NCBI GenBank assembly: GCA_947501635.1 | Contig: CANMWT010000005.1 | Location: forward strand, 1 to 64,000 | DNA: 64,000 nt | Source: an uncultured Roseobacter sp. | Lineage (GTDB): Bacteria; Pseudomonadota; Alphaproteobacteria; Rhodobacterales; Rhodobacteraceae | Direction: 5' to 3' | Shown here: piece by piece, positions 14,791 to 29,635 of the stretch | Position numbering within the stretch: the stretch's first letter is position 1 | How the letters are laid out: each line of letters starts with the position of its first letter | Notes under the pieces: generated by a model | The model's input: only the letters and a program-made list of their open reading frames with translations | Database searches by the model: none | What the model was told of the DNA's origin: nothing | Position numbers and translations under genes: made by a program

Positions 14791-14831
14791 GCCCGCGTGG
14801 TGGAATGGTAGACACAGGGGACTTAAAATCC
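14791..14831 (+). pseudogene. 5' half of the disrupted host tRNA-Leu(UAA)
   Basis: Acceptor 5' strand, D-arm and the 5' side of the anticodon arm of a tRNA-Leu(UAA), ending in the anticodon loop (ACTTAAAATCC). The following bases (CTGTCGTTCCG) do not continue the tRNA. The 5' stem strand GGGGA does not pair with what follows here but pairs perfectly with TCCCC at 29588-29592. This is therefore the left part of a tRNA split by the island. Confidence 0.85.
14820..14831 (+). repeat. Left attachment core of the island
   Basis: GACTTAAAATCC, shared exactly with 29579-29590. It covers the anticodon loop and part of the anticodon stem, a known crossover position for tyrosine recombinases in tRNA genes. 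Confidence 0.75.
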
Positions 14832-14916
14832 TGTCGTTCCGCACCGGTCGTGTATTGTTATCAAGGCCTTGTGGCCGTAAGGAGATTTTGAGGCCCGAAA
14901 TAGGCCCGACACGCTC

Positions 14917-15002
14917 GCCCGCGTGGTGGAATGGTAGACACAGGAGACTTAAAATCTCCAGGCAGAAATGCCGTGCCGGTTCGAGTCCGGCCGCGGGTAC
15001 CA
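14917..15002 (+). tRNA. tRNA-Leu(UAA), complete copy inside the island edge
   Basis: Full cloverleaf with encoded CCA: acceptor GCCCGCG/CGCGGGT (G1-U72), D-arm GTGGAATGGTAGAC, anticodon stem-loop GGAGA-CTTAAAA-TCTCC (anticodon TAA), long variable arm, T-arm CCGGTTCGAGTCCGG, discriminator A. It differs from the reconstructed host tRNA by a compensated base pair in the anticodon stem and one base in the variable arm. It lies 85 bases downstream of the broken 5' half and may be transcribed from that gene's promoter. Confidence 0.95.
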
Positions 15003-15024
15003 AATCAGCTAGACCTATTTCAGG

Positions 15025-15591
15025 CTATGTCCTGTTGGAAGCGTAGTGTTCCCAGGCTGCTCCGCAGAAGGTCAGGATGGTACACATCGTCCAGATCAAT
15101 ACCAGCGCGCCACCGGGCGCCCCGCCCCAAGAGACTGGTCCAAAGGGCGTTTCGAAGGCAAACGCAAACTGTGCTGGAACAATCAGAAATAGTCCTGAGC
15201 TCACGCAAGCGGTAAAGAGCCGCCGGAACATAAACCCGCGATCGAACATTCGGAAGACGATACGCACGGCAACTGTCGTCACCAGTGCTGCAGTGCCTGA
15301 CCAAACAACGGATACCCCAAGCTCCATCCAGCCTATCAGGAAGACGGCGACAAACGTCGCCGCGAGTATACGGTTCGTTGTAAGCCACTCTTGCGAGGTA
15401 ACCGGTTCCTTTCCATGCCCCAGCCAATACCACACTTGCATCTGCACCGCGGCTCGGGCGTCTTGGTCAGTTATCGCCTCGATCTTTTCTTTGAATGCCT
15501 CAGCCTGTTCAAGGCCCGTTAGACCTTCCACCTCTCGGTGGACTTGCTCAGCTTTCTTGAACCATGCTTTGCGGGTGGTCTCACTGTGCAC
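15025..15591 (-). CDS. Island membrane protein, unrecognised
   Basis: A 188-residue protein with a soluble, charged N-terminal part (residues 1-65) and about four hydrophobic segments (near residues 73-95, 97-112, 124-144 and 160-180). I do not recognise a family. It is the last gene of a three-gene minus-strand operon. It starts at GTG 15591 inside the end of the preceding gene (11-base overlap); no ATG is available before the first membrane segment. In an island context a soluble protein plus a membrane protein can be a defence pair, but there is no motif to prove it. Confidence 0.65.
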   Translation of the reverse strand: MHSETTRKAWFKKAEQVHREVEGLTGLEQAEAFKEKIEAITDQDARAAVQMQVWYWLGHGKEPVTSQEWLTTNRILAATFVAVFLIGWMELGVSVVWSGTAALVTTVAVRIVFRMFDRGFMFRRLFTACVSSGLFLIVPAQFAFAFETPFGPVSWGGAPGGALVLIWTMCTILTFCGAAWEHYASNRT

Positions 15592-15937
15592 CGACGACCT
15601 CGGAAACGTACACAGGTTCGACGTTCCGGTAGCGGTCTATGTCGATTTCTTCGCCCGTGCTCTCGTCAAGCATAGTCTCTGGCACATCCAACGGGCTTTT
15701 GAACGTGGCGAGCGAAGCCTTCGTAAATGGTGATACAACGCGATAAACCACCCGAAGATTCCCTTCGGAAACCCGCTTAGCCAGCGCGCGCACCAATTCC
15801 GCTTCGCTAGGAGCATCCACGAGGTCTTTGATCCTGTTTAAGGTCACCTCGCGATAGCTTTGCGCATTGCGGAGCTTGCCGACCTCGACATCGAGGCGGT
15901 CCTCCCAATCTGCAATGCGGCGTCTTCGGAACATCAT
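15581..15937 (-). CDS. Island small protein, unrecognised
   Basis: A 118-residue soluble protein with an Arg-rich start (MMFRRRR), a helical first half and a more polar second half (DVPETMLDESTGEEIDIDRY). No family is recognised. It overlaps the genes on both sides: its start codon overlaps the upstream stop (ATGATG) and its end overlaps the GTG start of the membrane protein. The three genes are therefore almost certainly translated from one message and may form a complex. Confidence 0.65.
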   Translation of the reverse strand: MMFRRRRIADWEDRLDVEVGKLRNAQSYREVTLNRIKDLVDAPSEAELVRALAKRVSEGNLRVVYRVVSPFTKASLATFKSPLDVPETMLDESTGEEIDIDRYRNVEPVYVSEVVGAQ

Positions 15938-16965
15938 TCCTCGCTGTTCACTTCCAAGATGGCCTTGAGAACTTCGTCGTACTCCGCCCGTGACAGCCCG
16001 GCAGTGAAGATAATCTCATTGGTGTCGTCCGATAAAATTGCATTGATCTTCTTCACTTTCCCAAACTGGTAGGACACGCGCACTCGTTCGCAGTACGCGT
16101 CGGGATCGTCGACCGTGAACTGCTTGATGACTTTTGTCATGACATCGGACGTGAGTATACCACCCTGTTCGACCTGTGAAGAGGATTGAATCCGGTCGCC
16201 GCGGTCGTTCTTGTGCTGGGTTTCATAAAGCTCGAAATTCTCAGCAACTTCCTGCTTCTTTTGTTGGTCCGAGAACGAGTTCTTTGCTGTGGCAAGACTC
16301 AGCTCACCGATCTGAGACGCGTCAAGCAGTCCGTTCACTTGGCTCAATACCGAATTTGCCGTGCCGGAATATGAGATTGGCGGTTCGGTGCGCGGGTTCA
16401 AGCGAACCTCAACAAGGCCGTTCGTGTGAACTTTCAGGACATCCACGGCACGGAAGGGTACGCGGTCCGCGACGTATACCTGGCGCCCGTCTATCTCGGT
16501 CAAAACGCCGCGCTTGCGTCGGTGCTCGGTTCTGGCGATCTTGACGATCAAGGCATCCTTGTCCTCACCGTCCCCAACGCGCACCTCCGCCACGATGGGG
16601 CTTTCTGGATAGGCGGCAAAAACATACTCGCCGGTCCCAGGATGGCCTTTGTCCTTTGCCCAAGATGCAACAGCGTCTTCCTGGATTGCGCTTTTGAGAT
16701 CGTCCAGAAGGTCGTCAGGAAAATAGAACAACCGGACGTGTTTCTTCCCATGCTCCTCCGCCTCGCGGATGATGCCAATCAACTCGTCAGTGGTTATCGT
16801 CTTGTTTGACAAAGCCGGAGCAAGCCGGGTCTCAATCATCTTTGACCAACTGGACGCGGAATGCGGCAGCTTCTTTTGTCGAAGGAATGCGCGAACTGCA
16901 TCGAGCGTCGCCTGATTTTCCAAAACTTCAAAAAGTACTTCGTCGCTAATCACGTCTTTGTTCAT
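15934..16965 (-). CDS. Island large protein of a three-gene operon, unrecognised
   Basis: About 343 residues from ATG 16965; the frame is open to 17106, but the extra 47 residues look non-coding and no start has a clear Shine-Dalgarno. The first 80 residues are helical (VLFEVLENQATLDAVRAFLR). A middle region contains HVRLFYFPDDLLDDLKSAI, and beta-rich stretches follow (VYVADRVPFRAVDVLKVHTN, then RVRVSYQFGKVKKINAIL). No catalytic motif is evident. It heads the operon with the 118-residue and membrane proteins. Island location and tight coupling make a defence or toxin role possible, but this is not shown. Confidence 0.6.
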   Translation of the reverse strand: MNKDVISDEVLFEVLENQATLDAVRAFLRQKKLPHSASSWSKMIETRLAPALSNKTITTDELIGIIREAEEHGKKHVRLFYFPDDLLDDLKSAIQEDAVASWAKDKGHPGTGEYVFAAYPESPIVAEVRVGDGEDKDALIVKIARTEHRRKRGVLTEIDGRQVYVADRVPFRAVDVLKVHTNGLVEVRLNPRTEPPISYSGTANSVLSQVNGLLDASQIGELSLATAKNSFSDQQKKQEVAENFELYETQHKNDRGDRIQSSSQVEQGGILTSDVMTKVIKQFTVDDPDAYCERVRVSYQFGKVKKINAILSDDTNEIIFTAGLSRAEYDEVLKAILEVNSEE

Positions 16966-17434
16966 CCGCCGCCCACTCAAATCCCAGCCGGTAGAATCAA
17001 CCTCTGGGTGCCAAAAATCTACATGTTGTGTGTCCAGCATCCCACAGCCACCATAGAAATTCAACGTACCTGCTTTTTTGGACGGTCCGCAACCAAAGCA
17101 GGCCAATTCGGCTCAGCGGATAGGTTCGTTTATGATAACACGAGACGGCAGGAGTTGCGCCGCAAGGCGTAACATCGTTTGGAACGGTTACGATTTGCTT
17201 ACGTTTCAACCTTGGAAATTTGCGGGTAGTTTCCCGTCTCAAATTCAACTTTCGCCGATCTATTCCACCTTCGCCACAATGCTGTTTGTGACCAACCGTG
17301 GCAGATTGATTGGGCGTGAGGCTGGCCGAGATCATGCGTCGGCAGGACCTCAACCTCTTTCATAAAGTGGCACCGTCGCCGCTGAGTGGCGGTGGTCTGT
17401 GCCATTTATCGCGCCTCTATCTCCAGTAAGAAGG
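16966..17434. other. Island intergenic stretch, no gene seen
   Basis: About 470 bases upstream of the three-gene operon and downstream of the four-gene operon. It is less GC-rich than its surroundings and should hold the promoter of the three-gene operon. Short frames here have no Shine-Dalgarno or protein-like composition. Confidence 0.4.
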
Positions 17435-17467
17435 CCGGACCGTTGCCGCCTAGTGACAACGGTCCGG
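17435..17467 (-). terminator. Terminator of the four-gene island operon
   Basis: CCGGACCGTTG (17435-17445) and CAACGGTCCGG (17457-17467) form a perfect 11-base stem with an 11-base loop, 7 bases after the stop of the last gene of the minus-strand operon. In the minus direction CCTTCTT follows. Confidence 0.75.
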
Positions 17468-17474
17468 TGGCTTA

Positions 17475-17726
17475 CTATGCCGACTGTAGTGCCGGACTTT
17501 CGTCGGCGGTTTCTTGTTCATCAAGGATGGCACGCACTTCATTCATTACTTCATCCACCAAATCGTCATCGTGCGCGTCCAGTCCAAGGCTTTCGATCAA
17601 CTCAAGCGCCCCGACGACCCTCTCAGCGATCAATTGCACGAACTCATCGCTTTCCTCCGATAGTGGTCTTGGTGGCGGGTGGTTCAGCACGAATTCGATA
17701 ACTCTGTTCGCGGCAAAATTGATCAT
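17475..17726 (-). CDS. Small acidic island protein (fourth gene of operon)
   Basis: An 83-residue, mostly helical and strongly acidic protein (ESDEFVQLIAERVVGALELI, then GLDAHDDDLVDEVMNEVRAI). No family is recognised. The start ATG 17726 overlaps the stop of the upstream gene by one base (TGATG); the frame is open to 17747, but the coupled start is preferred. The gene is followed by a strong hairpin. Confidence 0.6.
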   Translation of the reverse strand: MINFAANRVIEFVLNHPPPRPLSEESDEFVQLIAERVVGALELIESLGLDAHDDDLVDEVMNEVRAILDEQETADESPALQSA

Positions 17727-18331
17727 CACGCTGCTCCCCGCATCCATTCTTCACGGGCCCGACGAGCTTCGCGATGCAGCTTGCGCAAAGGCTGGACGAA
17801 ACAGCCTTCGAACGCGTAACCAGCGTCTTCCTTGTGCCCGCTTCGCGACTGAAGATATCCTTGGTAGATTGCAGCCGTCAGCAACTTGGCCGGAACATAA
17901 GCAGCATACTTTGACGCCAATTCGTGCAGGGTCATGTCCAGCAGTTTGTCCTCCGACCCGTCGCGTTCATAGTCAAAGGCACCCCATTCCAGAATGTCCT
18001 CGACCGACACACCCACCGAGAGCGGCACTTGCATTGGGTCGTCGCTAGCTCGGCGGCGGCGGTGCGCGGCGCCGGGGGCAAGCGGCTGGGTTTCCCCAAG
18101 CAAATCCGGCCAGAGTTCGTCCATTTGCTCGTGGTCACCGCACGTGTGGGCCTCAAAGGCGTAGAAAACGGCCTCGGCAAGCGCACCCTCGGGAAGTTCT
18201 GGTCCGACCGTCTCCGCGAGATGCAGCATCGCAGCCCACGTGGTCAGGGTGCGCTCGTTGTCGATATCCATCTCGACTGACAGCGCAAGCACCGTGCCAA
18301 GGGGCACATCAATCTTTACTGGTATCTGCAT
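17726..18331 (-). CDS. Acidic island protein (third gene of operon)
   Basis: A 201-residue protein without a recognised family. It looks like two weakly similar halves that start MQIPVKIDVPLGTVLAL and MQVPLSVGVSVEDILEW, each followed by an acidic helical part (RTLTTWAAMLHLAETVGPEL; DMTLHELASKYAAYVPAKLL), separated by an Arg-rich linker (HRRRR). The C-terminus is basic. The start ATG 18331 overlaps the upstream stop by one base; the longer frame to 18595 runs over two other genes and is not used. The internal duplication is my reading by eye. Confidence 0.6.
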   Translation of the reverse strand: MQIPVKIDVPLGTVLALSVEMDIDNERTLTTWAAMLHLAETVGPELPEGALAEAVFYAFEAHTCGDHEQMDELWPDLLGETQPLAPGAAHRRRRASDDPMQVPLSVGVSVEDILEWGAFDYERDGSEDKLLDMTLHELASKYAAYVPAKLLTAAIYQGYLQSRSGHKEDAGYAFEGCFVQPLRKLHREARRAREEWMRGAA

Positions 18332-18576
18332 CACACCGTCTCCCCTTCGATCAATTGACTGCGCCGGGCTTTCTTTATGGCTCGGGAAGTCTGGACTGCT
18401 TCGCCAGCGGCCCTGAGCTTCCTGCGATACCAGTTTATGCAGCCGATGTTTGTCCGCGCGTTCGGAAACGCGGCAAGCACTCTTTGCAGGGCCTCTTCGT
18501 TGGTGAGTCCATTGCGAAGCGCCTCGTTGGCGATCATGCCGACACCGCGAGGCTGTCTCTGTTGCGTTGCATGCAT
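18331..18576 (-). CDS. Small WYR-motif island protein (second gene of operon)
   Basis: An 81-residue protein whose central part (NGLTNEEALQRVLAAFPNAR, then CINWYRRKLR) is clearly related to the C-terminal part of the divergent ribbon-helix-helix regulator at 19290 (DGMTNAEALDAVRKRFPHAK, then IAWYRSQMR). The C-terminal tail is Lys/Arg-rich, so nucleic-acid binding is plausible. ATG 18576 overlaps the upstream stop by one base, and its own stop overlaps the next start the same way. The family is not named by me. Confidence 0.65.
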   Translation of the reverse strand: MHATQQRQPRGVGMIANEALRNGLTNEEALQRVLAAFPNARTNIGCINWYRRKLRAAGEAVQTSRAIKKARRSQLIEGETV

Positions 18577-19154
18577 CACGCTGCCTCCTCCTCATTCACC
18601 TTGGTCGCGCCAGCCTCATTCAGCAGCCCGAGATTCTTGAGCGCCGCCAAGAAGTCCCCTGCGTTCGACACCTTGAACCCGGCATCGTAGAGTATGTCGT
18701 AGGTACCCTGGACGATGTTGTTGAACATCTGACCAAACAGAGTGTCGTCACCGCAGGACAGGAATTCTTCCATAGCTGCAGAGGCGTCATCCTCCAGATC
18801 GTCCCATAGTTGTCTCACCGCGTCACGGACGGTGAGCCGGTGAGGATCCGAGGTCTCCAACACCCACCAGATTGCACCGCGCATTTCTCCCAGTTGGTTC
18901 TCGTCATCGGCAATTAGCATTGCGAATGCCTCCTCCACGGCTGGCGAGGTTTGCGCCTCCAACTCGACCGGGACCCGAGGGTCGTAGAGGTCAGCCATGT
19001 CGGTGCCCAACCACTCAAGCACCTTCCGCGCAAAAGCTACGCGCTCCCGTGCGGTAGGGAGCCTGAGCACCGCATGCTCCCAGTCCTTATTGGAGAATGG
19101 CCACTTACTTGGGTCTTCAATGCGCTTTGCGATCGCGATCTCGTCGATAGTCAT
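18576..19154 (-). CDS. Island protein, first gene of coupled operon, unrecognised
   Basis: A 192-residue acidic, helical protein (for example DWEHAVLRLPTARERVAFAR, then VRDAVRQLWDDLEDDASAAM). No family or catalytic motif is recognised. The start ATG 19154 is chosen because AAAGGA lies 8 bases upstream; the frame open to 19223 would run through the operator region. It is the first of four genes joined by one-base TGATG overlaps, so the four products are probably needed in fixed proportion. It is divergent from the ribbon-helix-helix gene and probably controlled by it. Confidence 0.65.
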   Translation of the reverse strand: MTIDEIAIAKRIEDPSKWPFSNKDWEHAVLRLPTARERVAFARKVLEWLGTDMADLYDPRVPVELEAQTSPAVEEAFAMLIADDENQLGEMRGAIWWVLETSDPHRLTVRDAVRQLWDDLEDDASAAMEEFLSCGDDTLFGQMFNNIVQGTYDILYDAGFKVSNAGDFLAALKNLGLLNEAGATKVNEEEAA

Positions 19155-19202
19155 CTTGTCGTTCCTTTGTATTTGGTTGCACTTGCCCCTCAGGGCGATT
19201 AG

Positions 19203-19225
19203 ATGTGATGCTAACTGCATCACAT
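19203..19225. promoter_or_regulatory. Palindromic operator between divergent island genes
   Basis: ATGTGATGC (19203-19211), 5-base spacer, GCATCACAT (19217-19225): a perfect 9-base inverted repeat. The half-site TGATGC/GCATCA recurs at 19252-19257 and 19283-19288, the last touching the start codon of the regulator. A second inverted repeat, GATTCT/AGAATC, lies at 19244-19267. This fits a cluster of sites for the ribbon-helix-helix protein encoded next to it, repressing both directions. Confidence 0.65.
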
Positions 19226-19289
19226 GGCGTCACCTATAACGGTGATTCTATTGATGCGTCAAGAATCAATATGATGATAGGAGCATCAC

Positions 19290-19631
19290 ATGGCATCGAA
19301 CCAGAAGAGAATTACGGTCACGTTAGAGGAAGACCAGTACGTGGGCCTTGAGGAAGTCGCCGCCGATACGGGCAAGAGTTTGTCCGACGCGGCGCGAGAC
19401 GCGATCAACCACTATCTTCTAGGCGAGCACTGGCGAGAGACGATTGGGGAGCTTGCGCGTAAGTCCATAAAGGACGGGATGACCAATGCGGAGGCGCTGG
19501 ACGCCGTGCGCAAGCGTTTTCCACACGCTAAGACCACCCCGGCGTCCATCGCTTGGTATCGTAGCCAGATGAGAAAGGAAGACCCCCACGTTCCAACCGA
19601 CGCCCAGGCTCGTCATACTCGTGGCGAATAG
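19290..19631 (+). CDS. Ribbon-helix-helix regulator with C-terminal WYR-motif domain
   Basis: A 113-residue protein. Residues 5-45 look like a CopG/Arc-type ribbon-helix-helix (KRITVTLEEDQYVGLEEVAA, then TGKSLSDAARDAINHYL). Residues 52-93 (LARKSIKDGMTNAEALDAVR, then FPHAKTTPASIAWYRSQMR) match the small protein at 18331-18576 of the divergent operon. A repressor that binds the GCATCA sites overlapping its own start is the simplest role, and the shared domain could let the small operon protein bind to it. It could be the antitoxin-like half of an unusual system, but no toxin is recognised. Confidence 0.75.
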   Translation: MASNQKRITVTLEEDQYVGLEEVAADTGKSLSDAARDAINHYLLGEHWRETIGELARKSIKDGMTNAEALDAVRKRFPHAKTTPASIAWYRSQMRKEDPHVPTDAQARHTRGE

Positions 19632-19697
19632 AAGACTCGTTGCTTTTCAGCTCAAGTCAAATCAGCAACCCGAACAAAATGGTGAGGATATCGCCCC

Positions 19698-20621
19698 ATG
19701 AGCAGAACGACGGACTATGCGATCAGTATGGCAAATGCGCAACGTTGGGTGTCCCGAATATCTTTGACGTGCCCAAAATGCGGTGAGCCGATCTGCAAGG
19801 AACTTGATGTACCTGAACCAAACCTGATGGCAGAAAAGTCGCGCGATATGGTTTCTGAGGGAGATATCGCCTTCGAGTGCGACGATTGTGGAGAGTATTT
19901 TGAGGGTGATGTCTATGCTGGCCCTGCCCACTGCGACATTGAGCTCCGAAGCCACAGCGACGTGAATGTCTACTGTGATCCACCCGGGTACGATCGACCG
20001 CCAGAAGACTGGTATGAAGAGGAATTTTCACTCCCGTCTGACCCGAGTGCAGTTCTCCAAACCAATCTGACAGAGATTGAAGCACTGATTCACACTCATG
20101 CTGAACAAGATGGCTCAAGTTTGATCAATCGAATGATTTTCGCTCAGATACTCACCTATCTTGAGGCGTTCTTTTGCGACACGTTGATCTCAGGCCTCCG
20201 TTCGCATCCAGAACGGCTCAAGACCTTTGCCTCAAGAGACGGTTCCTTGGCTAGTTTGGATTTTAAAGCGGTACAGGTTTTGGAGGACCCCGATTTTGTT
20301 CGCAAAGCTGTGGAACATAATTTGAAGTCCCGGCTCTACCACAAATTTGGAAGTGGAAAGAAGGACAAGTCCGGTAAGTCCCGCTCCGAGGGGGTCGCGC
20401 TCTGGTATCAAATTGCGTTTGGATTTGCGCTGACACCATCGGACGCAGAGCTCGATCAGCTTAAGAGCTTTGCAGCGCTCAGACATGACTGTGTACATCG
20501 CAATGGAAAAACAAAAGAGGACGAAATTCTAACGCTATTTGATAAGGTTTACCTCCTGGATGCACTGTCGGTCGCTAACCGCGTGGTGACACACATCAAT
20601 TCTGAGATGCAAAAGCTCTGA
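19698..20621 (+). CDS. Zinc-ribbon plus HEPN-domain protein (candidate RNase)
   Basis: A 307-residue protein. The N-terminus has a four-cysteine zinc site (CPKC at residues 25-28, CDDC at 61-64). The C-terminal helical region ends with SFAALRHDCVHRNGK, where Arg262 and His267 give the R-x4-H motif of HEPN ribonucleases. HEPN domains cut RNA in toxin-antitoxin, abortive infection and CRISPR effectors. It is monocistronic, 66 bases after the ribbon-helix-helix gene, with GAGGATAT before the start. An anti-phage role is an inference from motif and island location; the fold of the middle region (residues 120-250) was not recognised. Confidence 0.65.
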   Translation: MSRTTDYAISMANAQRWVSRISLTCPKCGEPICKELDVPEPNLMAEKSRDMVSEGDIAFECDDCGEYFEGDVYAGPAHCDIELRSHSDVNVYCDPPGYDRPPEDWYEEEFSLPSDPSAVLQTNLTEIEALIHTHAEQDGSSLINRMIFAQILTYLEAFFCDTLISGLRSHPERLKTFASRDGSLASLDFKAVQVLEDPDFVRKAVEHNLKSRLYHKFGSGKKDKSGKSRSEGVALWYQIAFGFALTPSDAELDQLKSFAALRHDCVHRNGKTKEDEILTLFDKVYLLDALSVANRVVTHINSEMQKL

Positions 20622-20884
20622 GTTTCTTATGCGCATGACGCGCGGGGAGCTTCGCTCGACCTCGCGCGCATCACACTTCCGGGTGCGACCCTGGCGTTTG
20701 TCATGGACGGGCTGCGGGAACCGTGGCCAACCCAAAGAAACCCGCCCGCAGCCCGATGGGCCCCGACGCGCCGACAAAGGAGGAGCGCGCCGGGGCGGTC
20801 AGCCGCAGCGGCCGGAGGTGCTCGACCGTGGCTCTGCGGCCTCTCGCGCGGTAACGGAGTAGAACCCGCGCGAAGCCATATTCC

Positions 20885-21376
20885 TCAGCCTGCGGCCTTG
20901 GCGATCTCGATGGCCTGTAGCAGCGACACCGGACGGCCCTCGCGGGCCTTCTCGACCTGCAACTCCTTGGCACGGTCCATCAGTCGCCGCTCGTCCGCCT
21001 TCTGAGCGAGTGACGCATCGATCGACTTCGAAAGCGATGAGGCCTCTGTCCCAGCGCGTTCCGCCATGTCCACCAATTCCTGCAGGGTCGAGCCCACATC
21101 CGTCTCGAGCACGGCCGCCCTGGCCTGATCCCGCGTCAGCAGGGCCTCCGCGCCCTGAACAGCGGACACCATTTCCTCCAGTCGGCCCCGCGCCGCGTCG
21201 AGCAGGGCGGCTGCGAGCATCTCGAGGTTTCCCTCGGTCACGTTCCCGATCGACTTCGAGAGCAGGTCCCACCGACGCTTCTCGGCGTTAGGGGCGGCGT
21301 CGTGGACCTTCATCAACCTGTCGCTCAGGTCCCATTCGGTGGTTCCGAATGCCTTGTCGAATGCTGTGGTCGTCAT
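20885..21376 (-). CDS. Helical island protein, unrecognised
   Basis: A 163-residue, almost wholly helical protein (LEMLAAALLDAARGRLEEMV, then SLSKSIDASLAQKADERRLM). No family is recognised. It overlaps the upstream coiled-coil gene by four bases (ATGA) and is the last gene of the GC-rich minus-strand group that starts with the terminase-like gene. A structural or packaging accessory role is possible from context only. The 263 bases between it and the HEPN gene hold nothing I can name. Confidence 0.55.
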   Translation of the reverse strand: MTTTAFDKAFGTTEWDLSDRLMKVHDAAPNAEKRRWDLLSKSIGNVTEGNLEMLAAALLDAARGRLEEMVSAVQGAEALLTRDQARAAVLETDVGSTLQELVDMAERAGTEASSLSKSIDASLAQKADERRLMDRAKELQVEKAREGRPVSLLQAIEIAKAAG

Positions 21377-21885
21377 TTCTCTTCCTTCTCTGATGTTGGG
21401 TAGACCGTCGCCAGCGGACGGATGTTGCGTGCGGAGCCCGGCACGGCCCGGAGGCCCAGGCGTTTCGCCAGCGGCCGGGCGGAGTGCCAGGCGGCGGCGA
21501 CGAGAGCGCCCGACCTGGCGTGTCCGGCGATGACGGGGCGCCGACCGTCGCCGACGCCAATTTCGCGTTCCAGTCGTGCGGTCTCGCTGGACAGAAGCTC
21601 AAGTTGCTGGAAGGCGTCGTTTGCTGCCGCCAGTGCGGCGTCGTAGGACAGTGCCGCCGCGTGCTGCTTGGCCTTGATGGCGATCAGTTCCTCGCGCGCC
21701 TGCGCCGCGCGCTGCGCGCGTAGTGCATCCGCCTCCTCGGCCGCCTGGCGCTCGCGCTCGTCAACCTCCAGGGCGTCGAGTTCGGCGTCGATCTCGTCCC
21801 GTTCGTTCTTCCTGATCTCGTCGGCGAGCGCCTTCCGCGCCGCCGTTCGGTCACTGAGGACCAGCCGTCTGGCCTTCTCGAACAT
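21373..21885 (-). CDS. Coiled-coil island protein
   Basis: About 170 residues. Residues 10-110 are strongly predicted coiled coil by composition (RKALADEIRKNERDEIDAEL, then ERERQAAEEADALRAQRAAQ), and the C-terminal part is basic. I placed the start at ATG 21885 because GAAGGAGA lies 7 bases upstream; ATG 21891 and ATG 21906 are alternatives. Its stop overlaps the start of the next gene. No family is recognised; scaffold-like proteins of phages can look like this, but nothing specific supports it. Confidence 0.55.
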   Translation of the reverse strand: MFEKARRLVLSDRTAARKALADEIRKNERDEIDAELDALEVDERERQAAEEADALRAQRAAQAREELIAIKAKQHAAALSYDAALAAANDAFQQLELLSSETARLEREIGVGDGRRPVIAGHARSGALVAAAWHSARPLAKRLGLRAVPGSARNIRPLATVYPTSEKEEK

Positions 21886-21999
21886 GCCCATGTCTCCTTC
21901 GCTCATCTTCGGTTCTCGCGCATCGTGCGAGGCGACGGGCACAGAAGTGGACCAGCGAATTGGCCTTGGGTGCGGAACGATGGTGCGCTGGGCGTTTGG

Positions 22000-22533: not shown

Positions 22534-22811
22534 TTGGAGGCCCCGGCGTCCGACGCGGCGACCTCCGTCAGCTCCGCCCACGATTCCGGGGTGACGACGA
22601 CCGCCTGTCCTTCGACGTCGATGACGTGGAGGTCGGCGCCGCGTAGCAGTCGGACCAGGTCCCATTGGCCTTCGTTCGGGTAAAGGGGGGCCCGTGCCGC
22701 CCTCACCGCCGCGAGGGGTGCGAGGTCGATGGGACCGTGGCGCGCCTCCATGAGGGACAGCCACTTTCTGAATGCGAGGTCACGGTCCGGTTGGTGTCTG
22801 GGTCTGGTCAT
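22530..22811 (-). CDS. Small island protein, unrecognised
   Basis: A 93-residue protein (FRKWLSLMEARHGPIDLAPL, then VVVTPESWAELTEVAAS). No family is recognised. It starts at ATG 22811, 144 bases after the previous gene in the same direction, and its stop overlaps the next start. It belongs to the GC-rich group with the terminase-like gene. Confidence 0.5.
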   Translation of the reverse strand: MTRPRHQPDRDLAFRKWLSLMEARHGPIDLAPLAAVRAARAPLYPNEGQWDLVRLLRGADLHVIDVEGQAVVVTPESWAELTEVAASDAGASN

Positions 22812-22955
22812 GCCGCCGACGATGCGCGAGGCGACCTCGAGCGCATGCCCTCAAACCGTCGTTTCGGACCCGGCGTCAGGCCGGGGCGGACAGACCACAC
22901 AGGGCTTTGAAATCGTTGAGCTATCCGTCCGTTCTTCGGGGGCAGTGATCTGCGG

Positions 22956-23633
22956 TCACGCGTCCCAGACCCCGTAGACGGCGCCGTACAGGTCGACGCC
23001 GCCCGAACTCGTCCGCCGCGGGTCGTCCGTACCGCTCGCATTTTCGGTGTGGTCCGGCAGGTCGTCCCATTCATATTCGTCCGCTTCATCGTTTCGGCGT
23101 GCGCGTCGTGGCGGCGAGTGGTCCACCGGCTCGACGTCGCCTAGGTCTCGATCCGGCCAGGTGCAGAAGGGACCGGACCCGCCTACCGGCGTCCGGCTCA
23201 CGCTCACAGCGATCCCGCCCAGCCCGTTCCGAAGGCACCACGCCGCGCAGTCCCGGCGCGCGGCATCGTCCTCGAAGGGCAGGCCAACGCAGCCCTTCAC
23301 TGCGACGCCGTCCACCAGCATCGTCGTGGAGTGGAACAAGGCGTGCGTCGCGCCGGCGCGGTCATCCCAGAGCGAAGCGCCAAAGCTGCCCCAGTCCGGT
23401 GGGGCAACGAACGTCACAGTCACCGTGTCGCCCTCGGACGCCGAGACCACGCCGCGCGCAGAGGCAGCCTCCGCCGCGTCCCAGTCGTCGTTTGCCAGGG
23501 CATCCTTTGCGGCGGCCAACCGCGCGTTGTCGGATAGGAAGGGCAGGTCGGGCGCGTCGCCGAGCGCGTCGGCCTCGATGCCGTCTACCAGTGCGGTCCC
23601 GTCTTCGAAGAGGAGTACGGCCCTAGTCATCAT
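22956..23633 (-). CDS. Island protein following the terminase-like gene
   Basis: A 225-residue acidic protein. The N-terminal part (RAVLLFEDGTALVDGIEADA) and the middle (GDTVTVTFVAPPDWGSFGAS) suggest beta structure; the C-terminal 60 residues are low-complexity and acidic (NDEADEYEWDDLPDHTENAS). No family is recognised. ATG 23633 has GAGG upstream and overlaps the end of the terminase-like gene by 11 bases. Confidence 0.55.
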   Translation of the reverse strand: MMTRAVLLFEDGTALVDGIEADALGDAPDLPFLSDNARLAAAKDALANDDWDAAEAASARGVVSASEGDTVTVTFVAPPDWGSFGASLWDDRAGATHALFHSTTMLVDGVAVKGCVGLPFEDDAARRDCAAWCLRNGLGGIAVSVSRTPVGGSGPFCTWPDRDLGDVEPVDHSPPRRARRNDEADEYEWDDLPDHTENASGTDDPRRTSSGGVDLYGAVYGVWDA

Positions 23634-24216
23634 CCACCACCTCAGCGTCGATCACGGCGTCATGTTGCGACGCGCGGTCCAACTCGGCCTTGAGCGCATT
23701 AAGGTCCAGCGGCGCCCCCTGCTGCACCTCGGTGGGCGCGGCGTAGGTGTTGTTCTGCACGGCAACGAGCGGCGTCGTCCTGGCGTTCAGGTCGCGCATG
23801 CGCAGCGACATGAGCTTCACCGCGATCCTCGGGTCCACGTTCGCGCAGTCGAACCGCATCAGCGGCTCGAGGTCGTCGTCTAGCTCAATTTCGCCCGTGT
23901 CCGGATCGACCGCCGGGACCCACCGGCCCGTGCCCATGTGGAGCGCGGTCGCGATGACCCGCTGCGTCAGCGTCTCCTCGAACGCCTCGACCGCGTCGTC
24001 CCACGCGGCGGCGAACTCCCTGTCCTTGCGCCTGCGGTCATAGAGAGACCGCCTGGCCATGCCCGAGACATTCGCGGCGTATGTCACCTGACCGAACTCA
24101 GCCAGAGCACCGAGAAATCGATCTTCTATGTCCGCTGGTATCGCGGCGCGCGTGTGATAGCGGCTTGGCGCGTCGGCCTTTGCTGGCGGCCTGATCTGGA
24201 TGGCGGCGTTGCTCAT
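23623..24216 (-). CDS. Terminase small subunit-like HTH protein
   Basis: A 197-residue protein. Residues 28-80 form a helix-turn-helix region (FLGALAEFGQVTYAANVSGM, then RRSLYDRRRKDREFAAAWDD) of the kind found in phage small terminases, where it recognises the packaging start site. The C-terminal part (MRFDCANVDPRIAVKLMSLR) also fits such proteins. No large terminase is nearby. If the element is a satellite, such a protein could redirect a helper phage's packaging, as small terminases of PICIs do. The family call is from pattern only. Confidence 0.55.
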   Translation of the reverse strand: MSNAAIQIRPPAKADAPSRYHTRAAIPADIEDRFLGALAEFGQVTYAANVSGMARRSLYDRRRKDREFAAAWDDAVEAFEETLTQRVIATALHMGTGRWVPAVDPDTGEIELDDDLEPLMRFDCANVDPRIAVKLMSLRMRDLNARTTPLVAVQNNTYAAPTEVQQGAPLDLNALKAELDRASQHDAVIDAEVVDDD

Positions 24217-24511
24217 CTTCCAACTCCATGGGGCCTGACACTGGGCCCGGTTTTTGCTCCCTCATAGGGCGTTGATACGGATGGGCTTTTCGGGCCTCTG
24301 GGCGGGACGTGTGACCGACGATCCTTGTTTTCTTGAGGAGGCGTCATGTCGAAAAAACCGGGTCGCCGTCCCGACCGCTCAGACCAGGTATGGCACGCGT
24401 TTCAGCCCGGTGCGTACCAGCGTTGCTCGCGGGATGTGAGGCTCCCATTCAACCAAGCGCTTGCTTTCCACCATCTTGATCCACCGATTGGCACGTCAGG
24501 AGCATGTAGGC

Positions 24512-24722
24512 GGTCAGGGCGGTCAGATCGGTCAGGGTTCTTTCACAAAAGGCTGTATATGCAGCTTGGCCAAATGAACTGTTTCCTTAAGCGCATAATG
24601 ACAAAATAACCCTGACCGCCCTGACCAAAGAGCGTGAAGGCAAAGATGAGTTATCGAAAACAAGCGCTTAGGCGGTCAGGGTTGATGCTATGCAACCCTG
24701 ACCGGTAAGTGTTGCCCTGACC
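24512..24722. repeat. Iteron cluster, probable replication origin of the island
   Basis: The octamer GGTCAGGG or its complement CCCTGACC occurs at 24512-24519, 24530-24537, 24610-24617, 24619-24626, 24674-24681, 24696-24703 and 24715-24722, with a degenerate copy at 24521. Two copies form an 11-base perfect inverted repeat (24674-24684 with 24693-24703). The sequence between is AT-richer than the island average (about 24540-24670). It lies directly downstream of the SF3 helicase-primase gene, as the origin-like region does in P4-type satellites. Confidence 0.7.
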
Positions 24723-24751
24723 AACCTGGTATCGGTCGGGGGCGGTTGACG

Positions 24752-26170
24752 TCAAATTGCATCTTCAAAGTCGCTCATCTCAGGTATGGCCTGCTCATTC
24801 ACCGACAGGCCCTCAACGACCTGCCTGCGCTCGCCTTCGATGCGCACACGCCTGACCATTCTATCCTGGAACTTTCCTGATGATCTGAGGTCACGCCAGA
24901 AGATGTTGGGCGAGGTTGGCGATTGATCGTGGCCCAGACAGTAGCGCACATAGGCGCCATAAACGTCTTCTTTAGGCGTCATCACAGCACTACCGGTAAC
25001 CAGGCACTCGTTTGCAAAGCCCGCAACGTTCGACGCCTCTCTGATGATCTCAACCTGTCTGTCATTTATGGTTGATGGGACAATGAAGCGCCCTCTGCGT
25101 TTCAGCCTTCGTGCCCCATTAAGACATCGGTTCAGCACACCAGGGGCCTCTGGCTTTAGATCGCGCGCGAACAGGTCTGGGTCCTCCTTGCCAAGAAAGC
25201 CTTTGCGGGTTTCCATCAGCACCATGCGCTTTGCAACTGTGCCTGTCAGGTCCGTTAACAGGACGGGCTCGTTGGACATGAGAAGCCATTGGGCATTCAA
25301 GTAACCGACATAGTCGTCTTTGAACTTGCGCTGGATGGTCTGGATGTCGCCGCCAGATGTGGTGAGCATGATTTCGGTCAGAGCTGAAGTCTGTGCCCCC
25401 CGATCCAGGCGCGCGTCAGTGACCATGGCGACGGACTTGCTGATCAGCGATTGCAGCCCAAAGCCGCCTGATGCGATCTGTCTGATCTTGGGCGAAGCCA
25501 CTGCACCTATGCCCAGAAGTTCGACGAGCATCTGGCCGATGGTGCCCTTGCCTGACCTGGTGGGGCCAAACAACTGAAAGACCTTTTGGTACTTGTGCTG
25601 CCCCGTGATGATAGCCCCAAGGACCTCATGAAGAAGGTCAATCTGCTCACGATCGCCATCGAAAATCTCATCAAGGAACATGTCCCAGTTGAACGGTTCT
25701 TCGGCAAATGGATCATACTCAACATCAGCGCAATTGGTCGTAACTAGGCGTGGTGTTGGGTCCATGATCTCGCCGGTCTGCCAGTCAAGCAGGCCATTTG
25801 AAACGGGCAACAGGCTGCTTGGGTCTGGCAGGGCCTTCTCGCAGTCTTCGGAAGGCAGCCAGAAGGGCAACTCATCCACATCCTCAACCATGCTCAGGTG
25901 GATCATTGCTTCACGGACGTTTGCAGACTGCTTAGTGTCCATGTAGAGCGTCGCGGGTTCGCCCTTCTTGTCCGTGTAGGATCGCCCGTCGAGAACGCGA
26001 TAGATCGCGCTTGTCAGGGCCTTCTGGTCTCTTTCGACGTAGTGCCCTTTGTCGGGTTGATACTCCAACCACATGCCAAGCGCGTAGATCATGAGCCGAA
26101 ACGAAAGGACCTCGGCGGCAAGATGGCTCGGTGCTAGGTTGCTGATCGGTGCGCGTTCATCAAGTGCCAT
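24752..26170 (-). CDS. Phage/plasmid primase, P4 family (SF3 helicase)
   Basis: A 472-residue replication protein. The D5_N-type region (NGLLDWQTGEIMDPTPRLVT, near residue 125) precedes an SF3 helicase with Walker A FGPTRSGKGT (about residues 201-210) and the downstream LTEIMLTTSGGDIQTIQRKF and LLMSNEPVL (Asn sensor) segments. It would unwind the island's origin. ATG 26170 overlaps the stop of the prim-pol gene by one base; the frame open to 26302 lies inside that gene. The primase activity itself is probably in the upstream protein, so helicase and prim-pol are split into two genes. Confidence 0.88.
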   Translation of the reverse strand: MALDERAPISNLAPSHLAAEVLSFRLMIYALGMWLEYQPDKGHYVERDQKALTSAIYRVLDGRSYTDKKGEPATLYMDTKQSANVREAMIHLSMVEDVDELPFWLPSEDCEKALPDPSSLLPVSNGLLDWQTGEIMDPTPRLVTTNCADVEYDPFAEEPFNWDMFLDEIFDGDREQIDLLHEVLGAIITGQHKYQKVFQLFGPTRSGKGTIGQMLVELLGIGAVASPKIRQIASGGFGLQSLISKSVAMVTDARLDRGAQTSALTEIMLTTSGGDIQTIQRKFKDDYVGYLNAQWLLMSNEPVLLTDLTGTVAKRMVLMETRKGFLGKEDPDLFARDLKPEAPGVLNRCLNGARRLKRRGRFIVPSTINDRQVEIIREASNVAGFANECLVTGSAVMTPKEDVYGAYVRYCLGHDQSPTSPNIFWRDLRSSGKFQDRMVRRVRIEGERRQVVEGLSVNEQAIPEMSDFEDAI

Positions 26171-27123
26171 TAGACTGCCTCCCCGAACTCGTCGTGGGGG
26201 ACAACACGGGCCCTGCGCTCGATCAAATGTGAGCAACCCTGTTCGCGCATCAGCTTGTAGAGCGTGCCAAGGCCGATGCCATGGCGCCGAAGACTGGCCC
26301 ATCTGTACCGGATTTCCTCTCCGTCTGTTGCGTAGAGCGGATCAGTTTCGCACCATTCGACGAATTCTTCACAGGCCTGGCCGGCGGAGGCATGATGAAC
26401 CGCCATCATGAGTTGCAGCCACTGGTCGTGATCGCGGAAGTCCTCAACGTTCATGTGGTGCAGAATGGCGCTGATCTCGCTGCCAGGGTGTTCACCTTGA
26501 CCATGTCGTTGGCAGGAAGGTGATTTTGCGGTTTGCCGTTTGGCCGCCCTTAGCAGTTTTGCGGGTGCCTTTGGTGCGCCCAGCCAGAGGTCATCCGGAT
26601 CAAAGTCTGTTTCTGCCCAGGCATAGGCTTTCCCGTTTGGATGTATTGAACCGGGTGCGACGACCTGGCGGCCGATAGTCTTGAATTCGATGCCTTTCCA
26701 GATGTCAGGCAAGTGATCGCGGACCGGCAAGGTTGCTGGTTTCCACATATAGAGATGATAACCACCCGATCCCGTGGAAACTGCGGGGTAATCCCTCAGT
26801 CTCACGCCCAACGACTTCAACTTGCGTTTGGCCGCAGGTATACCGCCCTGAATTGAGCGCGGGTCAATATCCACGACCAAGTCAGTCGATCGCAGCCTCA
26901 CGCCGACATTGCGGTTTGTACTTTCCGCATCGCGCAACACACGTTCATTGCAATAGGGGCGCGTGGTCCATCTCTTGTCTAATGGCGCCTTGCCGAGCTG
27001 GCGGTTGGTTCCACTTGCCTGCTGGCTTCTTGCCGTCTGGTGGTATCTGTGAAGGGGTATGAGTTGATAGCCACCGGCACCAAGCGGGTGCATCTGATCG
27101 ACATTGATCTGGAGGCCAGCCAT
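26170..27123 (-). CDS. Bifunctional DNA primase/polymerase (prim-pol) protein
   Basis: A 317-residue protein. The N-terminal prim-pol domain has the metal-binding DxD in LVVDIDPR (Asp85, Asp87), GSGGYHLYMWKP with the catalytic His123, and VVAPGSIHPNGKAYAW (about residues 154-169). The C-terminal part (NVEDFRDHDQWLQLMMAVHH, then FVEWCETDPLYA) resembles a PriCT-2 type primase C-terminal domain. It starts replication at the island origin together with the downstream helicase. ATG 27123 overlaps the stop of the HTH gene by one base. Confidence 0.88.
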   Translation of the reverse strand: MAGLQINVDQMHPLGAGGYQLIPLHRYHQTARSQQASGTNRQLGKAPLDKRWTTRPYCNERVLRDAESTNRNVGVRLRSTDLVVDIDPRSIQGGIPAAKRKLKSLGVRLRDYPAVSTGSGGYHLYMWKPATLPVRDHLPDIWKGIEFKTIGRQVVAPGSIHPNGKAYAWAETDFDPDDLWLGAPKAPAKLLRAAKRQTAKSPSCQRHGQGEHPGSEISAILHHMNVEDFRDHDQWLQLMMAVHHASAGQACEEFVEWCETDPLYATDGEEIRYRWASLRRHGIGLGTLYKLMREQGCSHLIERRARVVPHDEFGEAV

Positions 27124-27368
27124 CACACTGCCCTCCCGTGAGCTGTGCCTCGATTGTCGATCCAGTCGAGCACCTCGGGAAGAAGGTAATAGACCTCACG
27201 GCCATCATAGTGAAAGGGCGGTCCGCGGCGTCGATTGCGTGTCGATCTGTATTCAACGACTGTGCGCGCAGTCAGGCCTGACAACCCGGCGACATCGTCG
27301 GTTGTCAGGCGATCCCCAATTGCAGGTTCGATACCGGGCGGAACCCCGGCAGTGTTTTCTATAGGCAT
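27123..27368 (-). CDS. AlpA/MerR-like helix-turn-helix protein
   Basis: An 81-residue protein with an excisionase-type winged helix: RLTTDDVAGLSGLTARTVVE, then GPPFHYDGREVYYLLPEVLD. Such proteins act as excisionases or as activators of satellite replication genes (AlpA in P4). It is the first gene of the replication operon HTH, prim-pol, helicase, so an activating or autoregulatory role fits. GAGGAGACC lies upstream of ATG 27368. Confidence 0.75.
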   Translation of the reverse strand: MPIENTAGVPPGIEPAIGDRLTTDDVAGLSGLTARTVVEYRSTRNRRRGPPFHYDGREVYYLLPEVLDWIDNRGTAHGRAV

Positions 27369-27538
27369 AGCGGTCTCCTCAGACTTGCCAGCCCGTCGCG
27401 TTTCCGAGGCGCGGCGGGCATTTTTAGATGCTGTCGATACGTAGAGTACGCATCGTCTGTCCTTGGATACGCCAGCGATTCGCTACCTGTCGATCAACGT
27501 TTCGGGGTCAGTTGGCCCCAACTAATCTGAGGAGTATT

Positions 27539-27940
27539 TCAATGATATGAGGGGTTTATGTGATCGCAGAAGATCGGCGTCCACCCGCGGGCCGCGCGGA
27601 AGTGCGCGAGCGAGCACAGTTCCGGCCCCGCATATTGCTCGTCCGCGCGGGTGGCGTGCTCGACGAAACGGACGGGCGAGATGCGCCTTCCCGCCGAGTG
27701 GAGGTAGAACAGGTTGAACAGCCCGGCCATGACACGGTCGGCCTGCCAGGACATCCAAGAGACGCCCAGTTCACGGCAGGCCCGCCTCAGAGCGGAAGCC
27801 GCAGCGTCGTCGCCGTCCAGTTCCGGGTGTAGGCCTGCGCGGCAGTATTCAAGATAGGTGGTGCGCATCAGGTCGATCACCTGGCGCCGGTCTTCATCCG
27901 GCCACTGCGACATGGGCTCGTCGGGCGTCCACCGTCTCAT
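27539..27940 (-). CDS. Small island protein, unrecognised
   Basis: A 133-residue protein (VIDLMRTTYLEYCRAGLHPE, then RVMAGLFNLFYLHSAGRRIS). No family is recognised. It starts at ATG 27940, overlapping the end of the upstream HTH gene by four bases; the open frame to 28054 is Arg/Gly-rich and inside that gene. It forms a two-gene unit with the HTH protein. Confidence 0.55.
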   Translation of the reverse strand: MRRWTPDEPMSQWPDEDRRQVIDLMRTTYLEYCRAGLHPELDGDDAAASALRRACRELGVSWMSWQADRVMAGLFNLFYLHSAGRRISPVRFVEHATRADEQYAGPELCSLAHFRAARGWTPIFCDHINPSYH

Positions 27941-28176
27941 GACAGCGGCTCCTGGCGCAGGTCGTCCATGAAGGCTTTGAGGTCCTCGACGGCGTAGAGA
28001 ACCCTCCGTCCGACCCGATGGAACGCTGGGCCGCCGCCGCCCTTCATCCGCCACAGGTCCATCTGCTGCTTGGAAAGCCCGAGGTAATCCGCGGCCTCAG
28101 CAACTGGAAGGTAGGCTCTTGGGGGCGATGCGAGCCGCGCCTCGATTCGGTCGAGCCGTTCAACGATCTGGTCCAT
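27937..28176 (-). CDS. Excisionase-type helix-turn-helix protein
   Basis: A 79-residue protein: a short coiled start (MDQIVERLDRIEARLAS), then a MerR/excisionase-type HTH (YLPVAEAADYLGLSKQQMDL, then WRMKGGGGPAFHRVGRRVLY). It lies close to the integrase gene and is the best candidate for the directionality factor of the island. CAGGAG sits 9 bases before ATG 28176; the frame open to 28245 is not needed. Confidence 0.75.
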   Translation of the reverse strand: MDQIVERLDRIEARLASPPRAYLPVAEAADYLGLSKQQMDLWRMKGGGGPAFHRVGRRVLYAVEDLKAFMDDLRQEPLS

Positions 28177-28291
28177 TCGTTTGCTCCTGATTGCATAATC
28201 TTCAAGACCAGGATGGACGTTCGGCACGCCCCAGTAACCCATCACTTCCTATACGATCCCACCGGGCAGTGTTTCGGATGTGGGTTGCGCG

Positions 28292-29437
28292 TCAGCCGAC
28301 GCGCCCCCTGAAAGAGACGATCTTTGAAGCAACGGCCTCGGCGGCATCCCTCATAGGGCCGAGGAGGTTCGCCCTGGTCACATAGTTCCAGGTCACGCCC
28401 GCCGGTCGGTGGTTCAGCAGGACCATGGCCATCTGCATGTCCACGCCAGCCTCGAGGCAGAGCGTTCGGAAGGTGTGCCTCAATTGGTGCGGGGCGTAAG
28501 GGAACGACTTGATCCTGCACATCTGTTCGATGTGACCGGACTTGGAGGTCGATGACGGGAAGATGAACGGGCTCTCAAGTGGTTTCGTGTACTCGCGGAC
28601 GGCTGCCAATTCCTGCAACAGGAACCGAGGTAGGGGAAGCTTGAAGGCCTTGGCCTCACCGCCCTTTGGCGACGGCACGGTCAGCACGCCGTCGGCGTCC
28701 AGGTGCTCCCACCGCATCGACCTGGCGTCGTTCGAACGCAGGCCTGTCAGCAGCATCACCATCCAGCAGGCACGGCGCACCGGGTCCTCCATCGCATCGA
28801 GACGCCGCCAGAGTTCGGGCATGTCTGAGGGCGCCACTGCCCAGTTCCTCGCAGTCTCCTTGTTCATCTTGACGGCGCGGCTGACCGGGTTGGGTGGTAG
28901 GTCGTGGGTGCGCGCGGCGTCGTTCAGGACCAGCTTCAGGACCCGCATTGAGCCGTTTGCGCCATAGGGGCCTGACTTCCTCGTGATCTTCTCGTGCAGG
29001 TCTCGCACGGTCTCACGGTCCACCTTGTCTACGGGCAGCTTTGCCAGCGGGCGCAGTGGGCCTTCGATCTTCTGGCGATACCACGCCACCGTCCTCGGGC
29101 TCAGGTCCGGTCGGCTGGCAAGGTAGCGGTCGAACGCCTCTGTCAGCCTCGGCACGGCCGCCTTCGGCGTCCTCGGGTCCTCGCCGCGCCTCAGTGCCAG
29201 CTTGAGCTCTGTCGAACGATCCCTGGCCGACTTCAGCGCAACGTCGCCCGTCCTGCCAAGGACCACCGAGATGTACCGGTCGGTTCCGTCGTTGATGCGT
29301 CCGACGAACTTGTACGAGCAGCCGCGCTTGCCGACTACCACCCTGAGGCCCGAGACCTCGGAGTCATAGAGTTGGACGCCGGGCTGATGCTCCTCCATCG
29401 CCCGGTTGATTGATGCCTGGGTGAGCCTTATCGCCAT
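28292..29437 (-). CDS. Tyrosine recombinase (island integrase)
   Basis: A 381-residue site-specific recombinase that inserts and removes the island. The catalytic set is visible: Arg234 in TGLRSNDARSMRW, His317 and Arg320 in HQLRHTF, His343 in NHRP and the nucleophile Tyr352 in WNYVTR. The N-terminal arm-binding and core-binding domains occupy roughly residues 1-195. ATG 29437 has AAGGAGG 8 bases upstream. It is 142 bases from the right attachment core, as usual for tRNA-targeting integrases. Confidence 0.93.
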   Translation of the reverse strand: MAIRLTQASINRAMEEHQPGVQLYDSEVSGLRVVVGKRGCSYKFVGRINDGTDRYISVVLGRTGDVALKSARDRSTELKLALRRGEDPRTPKAAVPRLTEAFDRYLASRPDLSPRTVAWYRQKIEGPLRPLAKLPVDKVDRETVRDLHEKITRKSGPYGANGSMRVLKLVLNDAARTHDLPPNPVSRAVKMNKETARNWAVAPSDMPELWRRLDAMEDPVRRACWMVMLLTGLRSNDARSMRWEHLDADGVLTVPSPKGGEAKAFKLPLPRFLLQELAAVREYTKPLESPFIFPSSTSKSGHIEQMCRIKSFPYAPHQLRHTFRTLCLEAGVDMQMAMVLLNHRPAGVTWNYVTRANLLGPMRDAAEAVASKIVSFRGRVG

Positions 29438-29578
29438 GGCCTGATCCTCCTTGGGCCATGTCTCAGGCCCGGGTTGAAACACTACGTGTTAGGTTGCTAT
29501 GGGAGGATAGTGTCGCGATTTCAGGGGGTTGCGAACCCTGATAAGGCCCGGTAGGACGATATGAAACGCAAATTTGGT

Positions 29579-29590
29579 GACTTAAAATCC
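29579..29590 (+). repeat. Right attachment core of the island
   Basis: GACTTAAAATCC, identical to 14820-14831. The sequence to its left (AAATTTGGT) is island arm sequence; to its right the tRNA-Leu continues. Confidence 0.75.
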
Positions 29591-29635
29591 CCAGGCAGGA
29601 ATGCCGTGCCGGTTCGAGTCCGGCCGCGGGTACCA
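29579..29635 (+). pseudogene. 3' half of the disrupted host tRNA-Leu(UAA)
   Basis: Anticodon loop, 3' anticodon stem (TCCCC), variable arm, T-arm CCGGTTCGAGTCCGG, acceptor CGCGGGT, discriminator A and CCA. No 5' half precedes it. Joined to 14791-14831 it gives a complete tRNA-Leu whose anticodon stem GGGGA/TCCCC pairs perfectly. It has no promoter of its own. Confidence 0.85.

Follow-up and report, generated by a model that had tools for sequence, protein, structure and literature searches.

A satellite-like integrative element most likely breaks the host tRNA-Leu(UAA) gene and brings its replacement in Rhodobacterales

What kind of element splits the tRNA-Leu(UAA) gene of its host in the anticodon loop and at the same time carries a complete tRNA-Leu(UAA) gene of its own? 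The question is raised by contig CANMWT010000005.1 of an uncultured Roseobacter sp., of which a stretch of 64,000 nt was analyzed (hereafter the window; all positions are those of the whole stretch). We hold, with a probability of roughly 0.9, that a satellite-like integrative element has broken the gene and has brought the replacement for it (Table 1). This reading builds on the anatomy of the locus, on empty sites in related genomes, on the finding of only one full copy of the gene in the draft genome and on the recurrence of the arrangement at other loci.

ARAGORN calls a single leucine tRNA in the window, a tRNA-Leu(TAA) close to the left end of the element, and Rfam agrees; neither program calls a tRNA at either junction. 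The only sequence common to the broken gene and the element ends is a 12-bp core, GACTTAAAATCC, which comprises the seven bases of the anticodon loop and, on its two sides, two and three bases of the stem. The GGGGA of the outer 5' half complements the TCCCC of the outer 3' half. The complete tRNA is placed 85 bp inside the left element end and differs from the rejoined halves at 3 of 86 positions (29 G>A, 41 C>T and 50 G>A), the first two forming a compensated anticodon-stem pair (GGAGA/TCTCC) and the third lying in the variable arm. An earlier note, made from the sequence letters, had described the matching halves, the core at both junctions, the failure of either junction to restore a tRNA and the altered full copy inside the element; all of this stands.

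Insertion in the anticodon loop without rebuilding, combined with an element-borne replacement, is supported by empty sites and by six further loci. As the earlier note had predicted for relatives that lack the island, an intact tRNA with the GGGGA/TCCCC stem is found at this site in two species of the same genus (genomes G003 and G005, loci L012 and L011), where the gene is unbroken and identical to the rejoined halves in 86 of 86 bases. The locus is the same in the window, in these two genomes and in a third, G018, the site being flanked by a TPR gene to its left and by metG to its right. G018 thus constitutes a third empty site, the tRNA of which deviates at several bases. A tandem pair of host tRNA genes was rejected, since G003, G005 and G018 each give one match to the tRNA pattern and since a tandem pair would leave the 3' half next to the second gene. 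Between TPR gene and tRNA the window has a gap of 180 bp (14611-14790), versus about 40-45 bp in G003 and G005, and a TTTACA/TATGGT-like promoter that is seen by eye in these two relatives is not evident in the window gap.

An ordinary island that rebuilds its target is usually recognized by a full tRNA at one end together with a 3' fragment at the opposite end. On such a reading of the window, the complete tRNA at 14917 would be the restored host gene, 29579-29635 a displaced fragment and the half at 14791 debris. Indeed, relatives of the integrase behave in this way. When 394 genomes of the family were searched, six of them, the source genome included, had a match at E 1e-40 or better; two of these integrases lie in tRNA genes, in tRNA-Asn in G100 (63% identity) and in tRNA-Gly in G373 (42%), both at the anticodon loop, and both elements rebuild the target, as the stretch running from the loop to the 3' end occurs twice in each. 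Nevertheless, we regard this explanation of the window as extremely improbable. The TCCCC of the 3' fragment pairs with the outer GGGGA and not with the GGAGA of the full copy, joining the outer halves gives exactly the gene found in two relatives, the core sits at the outer junction, and a conserved left arm separates it from the full tRNA.

The stem of the full copy has a counterpart in the genus. Two other species (L007/G012 and L008/G006) have a native tRNA with the GGAGA/TCTCC stem downstream of the left-flank gene. The earlier note had taken such an island-free relative to speak against the insertion. Such relatives do exist, but the insertion stands, because the halves at the site retain GGGGA and TCCCC. 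Instead, these relatives suggest a source of the island copy: the L007 tRNA differs from it by one base (99% identity), and for this reason the island tRNA was probably taken from a close relative.

The arrangement is not confined to the window. A pattern of core, gap and new tRNA start was found in 4 of 390 genomes of the order (the source genome and three others), and a 19-base arm motif, searched over 84,980 genomes, was found at ten loci. Six of these, all Rhodobacterales by title, have a tRNA-Leu half, ACTTAAAATCC, the arm and a full tRNA-Leu(UAA) in this order: uncultured Rhodobacteraceae isolate 356, Roseobacter sp. CCS2, uncultured Ruegeria 2-58 and 406, Ruegeria sp. EL01 and Rhodobacterales bacterium SZUA-151 (the half of 406 is damaged). 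The remaining four (L078, L081, L083 and L085) lack a tRNA-Leu half beside the motif and were set aside as unrelated, and two viral contigs from the pattern scan proved to hold adjacent full tRNAs in arrays. With the window as the seventh locus, the full tRNA is co-directional with the half in 7 of 7. The right half was located for five of them (the window, CCS2, 2-58, 406 and, on a separate contig, EL01), and in four of these the halves rejoin to a tRNA-Leu(TAA) that ARAGORN recognizes. Between broken gene and replacement there are 22 differences in 86 positions in 2-58, 20 in EL01 and 18 in CCS2, so that these replacements are not recent duplicates. The full tRNA has the same sequence at the three Ruegeria loci and a different one at each of the other three, which makes four sequences in all. 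In each of the six genomes the tRNA 5' pattern occurs as the full copy alone or as the full copy and one half. The elements of 2-58 and 406 measure 15,965 bp and 15,564 bp core to core. Isolate 356 and CCS2 also have the TPR gene upstream of their tRNA arrays. Of 54 genomes in the genus to which EL01 belongs, 3 match the core-arm pattern, and all of these were known already.

The 85 bp between the core and the full tRNA are a conserved element end as judged by alignment, and this end is new here. Aligned with the four Ruegeria left arms, the window arm scores 30 to 51, versus at most -3 in 500 shuffles each; the arm of 406 scores 51 (shuffled maximum -3). These arms and that of the window form type A. 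The three arms of type B (356, CCS2 and SZUA-151) are 61-69% identical to the window arm, with scores of -11 to 2 and shuffled maxima of -17 to -14. When 19 genomes of the genus were searched for the window arm of 85 bp (E 0.001), the source genome alone matched. The arm holds the paired motif AGGCCCGA-AAT-AGGCCCGA, and this pair is the sole place on the + strand of the window with two AGGCCCG within 85 bp (68 of 63,915 positions, all containing it). A related motif is repeated at both ends of the G100 element. We infer that the paired motif represents integrase arm sites, in which case the tRNA would fall outside the attachment site of the element (attP).

The earlier note had also offered two stacked insertions, one of them mostly lost, as an alternative, in which the 5' half and the 85 bp would be the remnant of another element. 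Stacking does appear at related loci. In EL01 two successive left arms, 93% identical, each follow a tRNA half, the older of which is damaged; the second half differs in type from the full tRNA, which disfavours a simple local duplication. Reading on from the TPR gene, isolate 356 has a damaged half with an A-type arm, likewise damaged, and then a half that looks intact, an arm of type B and the full tRNA. The simplest reading of both loci is that a later element entered the replacement tRNA of an earlier one. The damaged half of 406 and the sequence that precedes it look similar to EL01 by eye, no more than a suggestive likeness. For the window itself, stacking is not needed and is highly unlikely: there is a single arm, the distance from core to motif is that of the single-arm loci 2-58 and CCS2, and the outer halves match each other.

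The locus of CCS2 holds what looks like a dead element. It measures 2,604 bp core to core and contains remnants of an integrase (39 aligned residues, 72% identical to the integrase of Ruegeria 406) and of a helicase (31 residues, 90%); it retains a homologue of the protein encoded at 21373-21942, and the tRNA. No further full tRNA-Leu(UAA) was found in the CCS2 genome by the tRNA pattern, nor an integrase like that of the window at E 1e-15. If the tRNA cannot be lost, a relic that keeps it is the expected outcome. We lean, by a little, towards the view that in some lineages of Rhodobacterales the sole tRNA-Leu(UAA) is a mobile-element gene that has been swapped repeatedly: newcomers would enter the replacement of their predecessor, old halves would decay upstream as a fossil record, and the tRNA of a dead element would be kept, being indispensable. 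If so, the conserved placing of the tRNA past the left arm would give every newcomer the use of the original host promoter.

The source genome is a draft of 4.2 Mb in 65 contigs, rated 100% complete. An Rfam census gave 39 tRNA matches; apart from the window gene, the typing covered the eight with a long variable arm (Leu TAG, GAG, CAG and CAA and four Ser), the other 30 being short. A scan with the 5' motif of tRNA-Leu(UAA) gave two places, the 5' half and the full copy. Thus neither census nor scan found a second full tRNA-Leu(UAA) in the draft genome, in line with the single copy that the earlier note had asked about. A tRNA with the anticodon CAA is unable to read UUA. TTA codons do occur in host genes (one in metG and two in a neighbouring gene of 1144 aa), which speaks for the main reading. 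They are rare in the genes counted, and this would suit an explanation in which the full tRNA is a passenger, acquired when an element excised imprecisely from an earlier host, and dispensable through another tRNA or wobble. The close match to the L007 tRNA, which makes capture from a relative likely, fits as well. We consider a passenger very unlikely, given that the arrangement recurs at six further loci with four full tRNA sequences among them, that the relic keeps its tRNA and that no other tRNA with the UAA anticodon was found.

For the element that breaks the gene and replaces it, the following course is proposed. The tyrosine integrase would recombine the short attP core with the anticodon loop of the host tRNA-Leu(UAA). 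Integration would destroy the tRNA gene, because attP is without the 3' half, and the element would for that reason carry a full tRNA-Leu(UAA) just past the left arm, oriented like the broken gene. The element copy would take over the decoding of UUA, whereas excision would make the host gene whole again. Once the element is integrated, losing its tRNA should be lethal, and the tRNA would therefore act as a built-in retention device; this addiction idea, raised in the earlier note, gains some support from the CCS2 relic. The island tRNA may possibly be read out from the host promoter, with which its conserved position and direction are consistent. A -35/-10-like pair (TTGTWT-17 nt-TATGGA) is seen by eye in some A-type arms and is poor or absent in the others.

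Several observations weigh against this reading. The expression and the essentiality of the island tRNA are deduced from sequence, and a consensus promoter scan gave no site before the tRNA in the left arm. A divergent second copy could escape in a draft assembly or, in the other genomes, through the pattern used, which needs an exact GGTAGACA. In Ruegeria 406 the flanking halves are of different tRNA types, which places this locus outside the simple scheme and is why its halves were left out of the rejoining with ARAGORN. No right half was found for isolate 356 in about 37 kb read, or for SZUA-151, where the contig ends about 200 bp on. At about 64% identity, the window integrase has counterparts in 2-58, 406 and EL01, but no such integrase was found for the elements of 356, SZUA-151 and, its remnant aside, CCS2. 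Moreover, elements of the replacement type do not group together in an integrase tree of nine rows (without the partial G383 and a Rhizobium plasmid copy), and the tree therefore does not give the number of switches between rebuilding and replacing. Finally, AGGCCCG is absent from the right ends of the Ruegeria elements, which makes the arm-site assignment uncertain.

The mechanism is already in print, for actinobacteriophages and for a Sinorhizobium prophage, and the window element is therefore a variant and not a new kind. The report on tRNA-dependent lysogeny in actinobacteriophages (Guerrero-Bustamante and Hatfull 2024, PMC10865867), which also mentions a Lactobacillus prophage case, describes a tyrosine integrase with an arm domain, an attachment site in a host tRNA gene (attB), a non-rebuilding core (8-17 bp there), an element tRNA of the same isotype and close relatives that rebuild instead. 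The window element has the tyrosine integrase with arm-binding domain, a short core, no tRNA rebuilt at either junction, a tRNA-Leu(UAA) of its own and integrase relatives that rebuild; the host tRNA gene appears to be its attB, and no other copy of the disrupted tRNA was found in the draft genome. It differs from the published systems in that it is alphaproteobacterial and satellite-like with no structural genes found, in its target, tRNA-Leu(UAA), in the placing of the tRNA directly past the left arm and in the direction of the broken gene at all seven loci, and in the stacking and the relic. In addition, the requirement for the tRNA is proven there, whereas here it is deduced. Closer in taxonomy are prophages of Sinorhizobium, likewise Alphaproteobacteria, in which the central part of a tRNA-Leu(UAG) gene is struck and inactivated and a tRNA of similar function is carried as substitute (PMC11476347); that account, in the sections available, concerns prophages, names two strains and does not mention arms, stacking or relics. 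Prophages similar to phiLM21 rebuild (PMC12429752). Islander-type islands (PMC4383910) share the tyrosine integrase and have the anticodon loop among their main sublocations but restore the tRNA from an attP fragment at one end, which the window element does not do.

Among the literature matches listed, with most subscription papers outside the search, we saw no report in which a satellite-like element replaces a tRNA in Rhodobacterales, nor one on a family of such elements that does so serially and leaves a relic. Our findings would thus extend tRNA-dependent integration from phages to such a family and provide a readable record of a probably essential tRNA gene that has been replaced more than once by mobile DNA. 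More loci of this kind may be hidden, because the usual search for islands, a full tRNA plus a fragment, reads them as ordinary rebuilt ones. The CCS2 relic provides a direct case for asking whether the tRNA of a dead element became indispensable.

The gene content makes the element look satellite-like, on account of a Prim-Pol, a P4-family primase/D5 helicase, an AlpA-like gene, a weak match to a terminase small subunit and the absence of matches to capsid, portal, large terminase or tail families of PHROGs in 20 island open reading frames (ORFs). For the family scans the larger or likelier ORFs were chosen from the ORF list. The regulator-like ribbon-helix-helix protein gave a side match to a virion-protein family (E 2.8e-6, PHROGs), and the terminase-like protein gave no match in Pfam or NCBIfam. 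As no structural gene was matched among these 20 ORFs, we liken the mechanism to tRNA-dependent lysogeny and do not class the element as a lysogenic phage. Satellites of the phage-inducible chromosomal island (PICI) type resemble the element in size, about 15 kb, in the combination of integrase, AlpA-like regulator and primase, which is present here, and in that no capsid genes were found; the terminase-small-like gene may be a further likeness, though its match is weak. Unlike them, the window element has no known helper, and it is at most a candidate for this class.

Table 1. Features of the split tRNA-Leu(UAA) locus and of the integrated element
Feature	Position	Strand	Evidence or remark
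Flanking host TPR gene	14056..14610	+	PF07719
Host tRNA-Leu(UAA), 5' half	14791..14831	+	Terminates in core GACTTAAAATCC (14820-14831)
Integrated element, core to core	14820..29578		14,759 bp; 12-bp core at each end; empty sites in G003, G005, G018
Left arm of element	14832..14916	+	85 bp; 75-84% identity to four Ruegeria left arms, above all 500 shuffles each
Paired motif, putative integrase arm sites	14891..14909	+	AGGCCCGA-AAT-AGGCCCGA; 60-61 nt past ACTTAAAATC in 8 of 9 arms, the ninth cut from a different start
Complete replacement tRNA-Leu(UAA), anticodon TAA	14917..15002	+	ARAGORN; Rfam 58.2 bits
Ribbon-helix-helix protein	19290..19631	+	PF01402, E 1e-6
HEPN-like protein	19698..20621	+	PF18735 27.6 bits, under curated cut-off of 28.4
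Element-family protein, no assigned function	21373..21942	-	tblastn: 54% Ruegeria 406, 52% Ruegeria 2-58; 60% over 118 aa in CCS2 relic
Terminase-small-subunit-like protein (weak)	23623..24216	-	phrog_4044 E 9.5e-10, 57 residues aligned; 70% homologues in Ruegeria 406 and 2-58 elements
P4-family primase C-terminal / D5 helicase	24752..26302	-	TIGR01613 147 bits; PF08706
Prim-Pol primase	26170..27126	-	PF09250, PF08707
Small HTH protein (weak)	27123..27368	-	HTH_17 E 0.0015, under cut-off; phrog_66 E 0.0029
AlpA-like excisionase/regulator	27937..28245	-	phrog_66 E 5e-7; PF12728 32.6 bits
Tyrosine integrase with arm-binding domain	28292..29482	-	PF00589, PF13356
Right arm of element	29483..29578		From integrase start to right core
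Core and host tRNA-Leu(UAA) 3' half	29579..29635	+	Core GACTTAAAATCC (29579-29590) opens the half
Flanking host metG	29749..31467	-	TIGR00398 447 bits

Single-protein scans of the genome-contig and viral-contig collections gave no relative of the integrase, and a class-wide search at E 1e-50 matched 1 of 385 genomes, the source genome itself. In the family, the sixth match (G383) is partial, and the integrases of G402 and G423 adjoin a protein gene. In G402 (L043 17765-19468) this gene matches GTA_TIM, the TIM-barrel domain of gene transfer agents, and appears interrupted: the match covers profile positions 1-107 of 299, after which the ORF stops near the integrase; the right flank of G423 (L044) is similar. 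The G100 element in tRNA-Asn (L042) is very small, about 3.4 kb core to core, with primase-like and helicase-like pieces on the strand opposite the integrase. A copy of the integrase in two pieces (66% identity over residues 181-394) is present on the Rhizobium gallicum plasmid pRgalR602b (L064 8001-8640), a 507-kb plasmid typed as conjugative. Within the island, PADLOC gave one match in ten ORFs (E 0.0098), and the HEPN-like gene beside the ribbon-helix-helix gene (19290-20621) could form a defence or toxin-antitoxin pair.

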